From Pseudolabrys sp. (lineage in GTDB: Bacteria; Pseudomonadota; Alphaproteobacteria; Rhizobiales; Xanthobacteraceae): a stretch of DNA of 64,000 nucleotides. The DNA lies in NCBI GenBank assembly GCA_022841665.1, contig JALHRB010000001.1:198984-262983 (forward strand), given 5' to 3'. The translations under genes and the position numbers were made by a program. Each line of letters starts with the position of its first letter. Position 1 is the stretch's first letter. The notes under the pieces are model-generated. The model was not told the DNA's origin, ran no database searches, and was given only the letters and a program-made list of their open reading frames with translations. This document shows positions 30,838 through 31,296 of the stretch, one piece after another.

Positions 30838-31296
30838 TCAGGGCTTCTTCGCCGCCACGAAGACGTGGCTGCCGGCAACGACGCCGTTGAGCGTCGGCGC
30901 CGAGGCAATGGTGAGGAACCACAGCGCCTGGAATCGATTGGCGGTGTTATTGAATTGGCCCGACCACGCCGTCACCGAATTGCAGCCGGCCCAGTTGACG
31001 GAGAAGGTGATCGCGCCGCCGTTCGGCGCGGGATAGAACCAGCCGGTCACCGGATGCGGCTTGTTGGCCCCGCAGCCGACCTTGGTGGTGATGGTGCCGT
31101 TGATCAGCCCGCTCGGCGTGACGGTCAGGACGGCGAACTCGGAGCCATCGTCGTTCACCCAGGCGGTGCCCGAAGTGAATTTGCTCGGCGCCGGCACGGC
31201 CGGTTTGTCCTGCGCGAAAGCTTGACCCACGCCAGCGAGCCCGGTGCATGCGAGCAAAGCGAGCACCGCCGCGCTGCCTTTCAAGCTTGTCAGCAT
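30838..31296 (-). CDS. Secreted avidin-family protein (rhizavidin/bradavidin-like)
   Basis: Signal peptide; AWVNDDGS, VGCGANKPHPVTGW, ITFSVNWAGCNSVTAWSGQ, ALWFLT match the avidin strand/loop pattern. Confidence 0.8.
   Translation of the reverse strand: MLTSLKGSAAVLALLACTGLAGVGQAFAQDKPAVPAPSKFTSGTAWVNDDGSEFAVLTVTPSGLINGTITTKVGCGANKPHPVTGWFYPAPNGGAITFSVNWAGCNSVTAWSGQFNNTANRFQALWFLTIASAPTLNGVVAGSHVFVAAKKP

Follow-up and report, generated by a model that had tools for sequence, protein, structure and literature searches.

The purpose of bacterial avidins is unsettled, and the best-known of them bind biotin almost irreversibly. The stretch of Pseudolabrys DNA analysed here (64,000 nucleotides, hereafter the window) carries a gene that a first-pass annotation had taken to encode a secreted, rhizavidin-like avidin with two altered biotin-contact positions, which raises the question of whether the product is an avidin at all and, if it is, what such a pocket binds. 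The open reading frame had been delimited exactly, down to strand, start codon and length (Table 1). A GGAGGA ribosome-binding motif can be read directly 5′ of the ATG, and the GC content of 0.86 at third codon positions (0.55 and 0.56 at the first and second, respectively) fits a real gene in the DNA of the window. The putative signal peptide is likewise apparent in the translation; its region is of low confidence in the structural model described below. Signal peptides and lipoboxes of the window avidin and its orthologues were called by eye. The signal region contains an LLAC motif, but a lipoprotein was rejected because a consistent lipobox is absent across the orthologues, and Sec/AxA cleavage is preferred for the same reason. 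The window avidin is probably exported via a Sec signal peptide.

Table 1 Features of the avidin locus, with coordinates counted from the first nucleotide of the window
Feature	Coordinates	Strand	Description
Avidin-family gene, bradavidin-1-like	30838-31296	minus	152 aa, ATG start; Ile43, His128, Leu120 (streptavidin numbering)
Putative signal peptide, ~residues 1-28	31213-31296	minus	h-region AAVLALLACTGLAGV, AFA-Q type cleavage site; by eye from translation
Eight-stranded avidin barrel, residues 45-148	30853-31164	minus	AlphaFold2 model and PDB avidins found by Foldseek
Downstream neighbour, molybdopterin-binding (CinA N-terminal-like), 256 aa	29983-30753	minus	PF00994, 111.6 bits; syntenic in 7/7 orthologous loci
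Divergent neighbour, circularly permuted ATP-grasp protein, 525 aa	31461-33038	plus	PF14403, 566 bits; syntenic in 7/7 orthologous loci

The predicted protein matches the Pfam Avidin family (PF01382) well past chance, with 59.4 bits and an E-value of 5e-16 against a curated cut-off of 24. An AlphaFold2 model, for which 11 sequences from the window and the orthologous loci served as input, shows an eight-stranded antiparallel beta barrel, with block pLDDT of ~90-96 across most of the avidin domain and a weaker loop at about residues 131-140. When this model was compared with the PDB using Foldseek, only avidin-family entries appeared among the 50 matches listed; the top E-value belonged to wilavidin, and core-bradavidin was matched with target TM-scores of 0.87-0.88 (0.88 for 4bbo), at 1.9 Å and 41% identity. 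The first-pass annotation had proposed a profile search and a structure prediction as checks, with a missing family match or another fold as the contrary outcomes; given the Pfam match and the eight-stranded barrel, neither contrary outcome was found. The open reading frame encodes a true avidin.

Orthologues of the gene were detected in 7 of the 44 Pseudolabrys genomes that made up our sample. A search of genome contigs recovered four of them with an alignment as the query and none with a single protein. In all seven genomes, the gene lies between the CinA-like molybdopterin-binding gene and the divergent ATP-grasp gene, and the spacing of these flanks is 827-927 bp, compared with 250-563 bp in the 20 genomes lacking the gene in which the site was measurable. 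A plasmid or mobile origin was rejected, given the single conserved site in seven genomes and only one distant plasmid match. One carrier, G232, has four avidin-family places (L017, L020, L021 and L022). One of these is the syntenic orthologue; of the others, one is streptavidin-like and has Tyr43 and Asp128 intact, one contains a stop codon and one is partial.

To which of the described avidins is this group related? The best PDB sequence match of the window avidin is bradavidin 1 of Bradyrhizobium (PDB 2Y32/4BBO; E = 1e-18, ~41% identity), followed by wilavidin and shwanavidin (E-values of ~1e-13 to 1e-14), whereas rhizavidin is matched at 1e-4. In a tree of 40 rows, the window gene and its six orthologues are monophyletic (support 99/96); their sister group consists of bradavidin 1 and related sequences (96/93), while shwanavidin, wilavidin, bradavidin 2 and sequences with the rhizavidin motif form a separate group. 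The members of that group share with the window protein the barrel and the cysteine pair and, for the window copy only, the absence of Trp120, but they are less similar in sequence and retain Asp128 and Tyr or Phe at position 43. The best sequence match and the tree thus led us to reject a rhizavidin-like dimer, and the name proposed initially should give way to bradavidin-1-like. The two cysteines, initially aligned with those of rhizavidin, also have counterparts in bradavidin: C75 and C105 align with its Cys39 and Cys69 and would form a disulphide connecting loops L3,4 and L5,6, and since tetrameric bradavidin carries the same disulphide (PMC5398887), the pair is no sign of a dimer. The window protein also differs from bradavidin 1, which keeps Tyr43, Asp128 and the inter-subunit Trp, has an L3,4 loop two residues longer than that of the Pseudolabrys group and ends in the Brad-tag, an intrinsic C-terminal ligand; the Brad-tag is absent from the group, and the window protein ends directly after strand 8. 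With streptavidin and chicken avidin the window protein shares the fold and the aromatic cage, although at low sequence identity and without the full set of hydrogen bonds to the ureido group found in those proteins. As a separate observation, the frame of one bradavidin-1 homologue (L005:1381-2463) continues for ~190 residues beyond its Brad-tag-like end, possibly through a lost stop codon.

Residues of the binding site were compared in the numbering of a streptavidin reference sequence, the key positions of which were checked by script. The alignment bears out the conservation of W21, N23, S27, W79, S88, T90, W92, W108 and L110 in the window copy, as well as both of the replacements initially reported, with Ile at position 43 and His at position 128. 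The ureido hydrogen-bond set (N23, S27, Y43, S/T/N45, D/N128) is consequently incomplete in the window copy. Neither loss is peculiar to it: Asp128 is lost in 7/7 orthologues (five His, one Asn, one Gln), and so is the Tyr43 hydroxyl (five Val, one Phe and the Ile of the window copy). Position 23 is Ala in three of the seven, two of which also have Phe at position 21. Val43 and His128 thus occur both with N23, as in L020, and with Ala23, as in L008. The remainder of the pocket is preserved, with the tryptophan cage W79/W92/W108, S88, T90, L110 and both cysteines present in all seven. Every other confidently aligned avidin sampled at the family, order, class and phylum levels has Asp128, with either Tyr or Phe at position 43. 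This comparison leaves out four distant sequences (L031, L099, L100 and L101), the C-terminal ends of which could not be aligned reliably. In tetrameric avidins, Trp120 seals the pocket of the neighbouring subunit. Its absence, previously likened to that in dimeric avidins, holds for the window copy, which has Leu, but the six orthologues keep Trp and the tree does not place the group with the dimeric avidins.

From these residues we infer, as to the ligand, affinity and role of the Pseudolabrys avidins, that the window gene most likely encodes an exported protein that binds biotin, or a molecule resembling it, weakly and reversibly, a reading to which we give about an even chance. The conserved tryptophan cage would capture biotin, or a close vitamer or derivative, and both this cage and the valerate end of the pocket are kept across the group. 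The ureido end, by contrast, would be gripped by fewer hydrogen bonds, with the Tyr43 hydroxyl gone and Asp128 replaced by a neutral or titratable His, Asn or Gln. In core-bradavidin, the ureido oxygen is bound by Asn, Ser and Tyr, a ureido nitrogen by the Asp equivalent to position 128, and the carboxylate and sulphur of biotin are contacted by Ser and Thr (PMC5398887). In streptavidin, the single substitution D128A carries a penalty of 4.4 kcal/mol (over a thousand-fold) and in simulation also breaks the N23 contact (PMC4888747). Binding by the Pseudolabrys proteins would then be reversible and much weaker than femtomolar, possibly with a dependence on pH through His128. The residues now found at position 128 may nevertheless keep a hydrogen bond, because chicken avidin, too, lacks Asp there and binds biotin with Asn in its place (PMC5398887). 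The suggestion in the first-pass annotation of weaker or different ligand binding was a fair inference. With N23 missing as well from three orthologues, some members of the group may have lost biotin binding altogether.

The main rival to weak biotin binding is a change of ligand, in which the barrel would accommodate a non-biotin molecule, either a peptide or some small compound of hydrophobic or heterocyclic nature, with the replacements at positions 43, 128 and 23 reflecting the new partner. Such a switch could account for ureido contacts that changed in concert around an intact cage under purifying selection, and for an L3,4 lid loop two residues shorter than that of bradavidin, the pocket of which already takes its own C-terminal peptide (PMC5398887). 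However, that tail is missing from the Pseudolabrys group, the changes are confined to one end of the pocket, with the S88 and T90 contacts to the carboxylate and the ring sulphur kept, and positions 43 (V/I/F) and 128 (H/N/Q) vary among the orthologues in a way not expected of a tightly fitted new site. We regard a switch of ligand as rather unlikely. Slightly less doubtful, and still tentative, is the broader proposition that in a branch maintained without the ureido network the barrel binds either a non-biotin ligand or biotin itself, reversibly and with pH-controlled release through His128.

Decay of the gene, with relaxed selection eroding the binding site, ureido contacts first, before the gene is lost, would fit the patchy retention and the many empty sites in the genus. 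The avidin gene is indeed dispensable, being absent at the site from most genomes and decayed in one (G158), where a frameshifted, internally deleted remnant (L063:1448-1640) lies between the CinA-like and ATP-grasp genes at a flank spacing of 679 bp. Another empty site (L086 in G034) has a long gap of 563 bp, against roughly 250-380 bp in others, in which no avidin remnant was detected. A tree built from the flanking genes intersperses carriers among non-carriers, a pattern that fits a gene present in the ancestor and lost repeatedly since; G232 is placed differently in this tree and in that of the avidin gene, so that some transfer or recombination may have contributed. The avidins also diverge faster than their surroundings, the window protein being ~50% identical to its orthologues compared with ~80-90% for the flanking proteins. 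Selection analysis with YN00 nevertheless argues against erosion: the closest orthologue pair has a dN of 0.052 and a dS of 1.30, a ratio of ~0.04, indicating that the altered pocket is maintained in that pair, and the two computable comparisons of the window copy, in which dS approaches saturation, yield ratios of 0.22-0.28; for many of the remaining pairs YN00 gave no estimate. Taken with the difference in identity, these low ratios suggest a gene that evolves fast yet under constraint. Furthermore, none of the seven orthologues contains a stop or frameshift, the cage tryptophans at positions 79, 92 and 108 are invariant, as is the cysteine pair, and D128 has been replaced only by His, Asn or Gln rather than by random residues. 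A recent pseudogene was rejected, given the lack of stops and the purifying selection among close orthologues. Decay is thus less likely for the group, for which we consider it improbable, but possible for the window copy, which could be drifting, since it sits on a long branch (0.63) and has uniquely lost W120. That these proteins are ordinary tight binders, with other side chains or waters standing in for Tyr43 and Asp128 and an affinity near that of other bacterial avidins, is very improbable: Phe43 occurs naturally in bradavidin 2 and Asn128 in chicken avidin, but here two ureido contacts, and three in some members, have changed together, where the single D128A exchange is already so costly in streptavidin.

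A role in biotin supply cannot be claimed, as carriers and non-carriers show no significant difference in bioB. This gene scores above the NCBIfam cut-off in the genome of the window, G218 and G232, and not in the other four carriers (G143, G070, G111 and G216), a result that suggests biotin auxotrophy there. Across the genus, however, bioB is found in 3 of the 7 carriers and 26 of the 37 non-carriers, a difference that is not significant (Fisher p = 0.21) and is blurred by incomplete genomes, and the link to auxotrophy was dropped.

Avidins with altered pockets are not unprecedented, because clades in which biotin contacts have changed non-conservatively were described in a survey of bacterial avidins from 2021, notably the Metavidins, for which it doubts biotin binding (PMC8033661). 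The Metavidins and the avidin domains of fibropellins resemble the Pseudolabrys group in that their biotin contacts are altered and biotin binding is doubted or absent (PMC8033661); for the Metavidins the likeness is drawn from their published description, and in fibropellins the described changes hit the tryptophan cage (PMC8033661), which is intact in the Pseudolabrys group. Our literature search found no paper joining Pseudolabrys with avidin. As far as the literature and our searches go, what is new is a defined, syntenic and constrained group beside bradavidin 1 that has lost the contacts at positions 43 and 128. With its barrel and cage kept under selection and its ureido contacts replaced, such a branch offers a natural experiment on the purpose of avidins, and it could yield reversible or pH-releasable biotin binders. 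A different pattern is seen in a divergent group from the same order (L015, L032, L033 and L034-L040), which scores just above the Avidin cut-off and sits on a very long branch: its members keep N23, S27, F43, D128 and W108, lack W79, T90 and W92, and carry a GTFKTALxDS-like motif.
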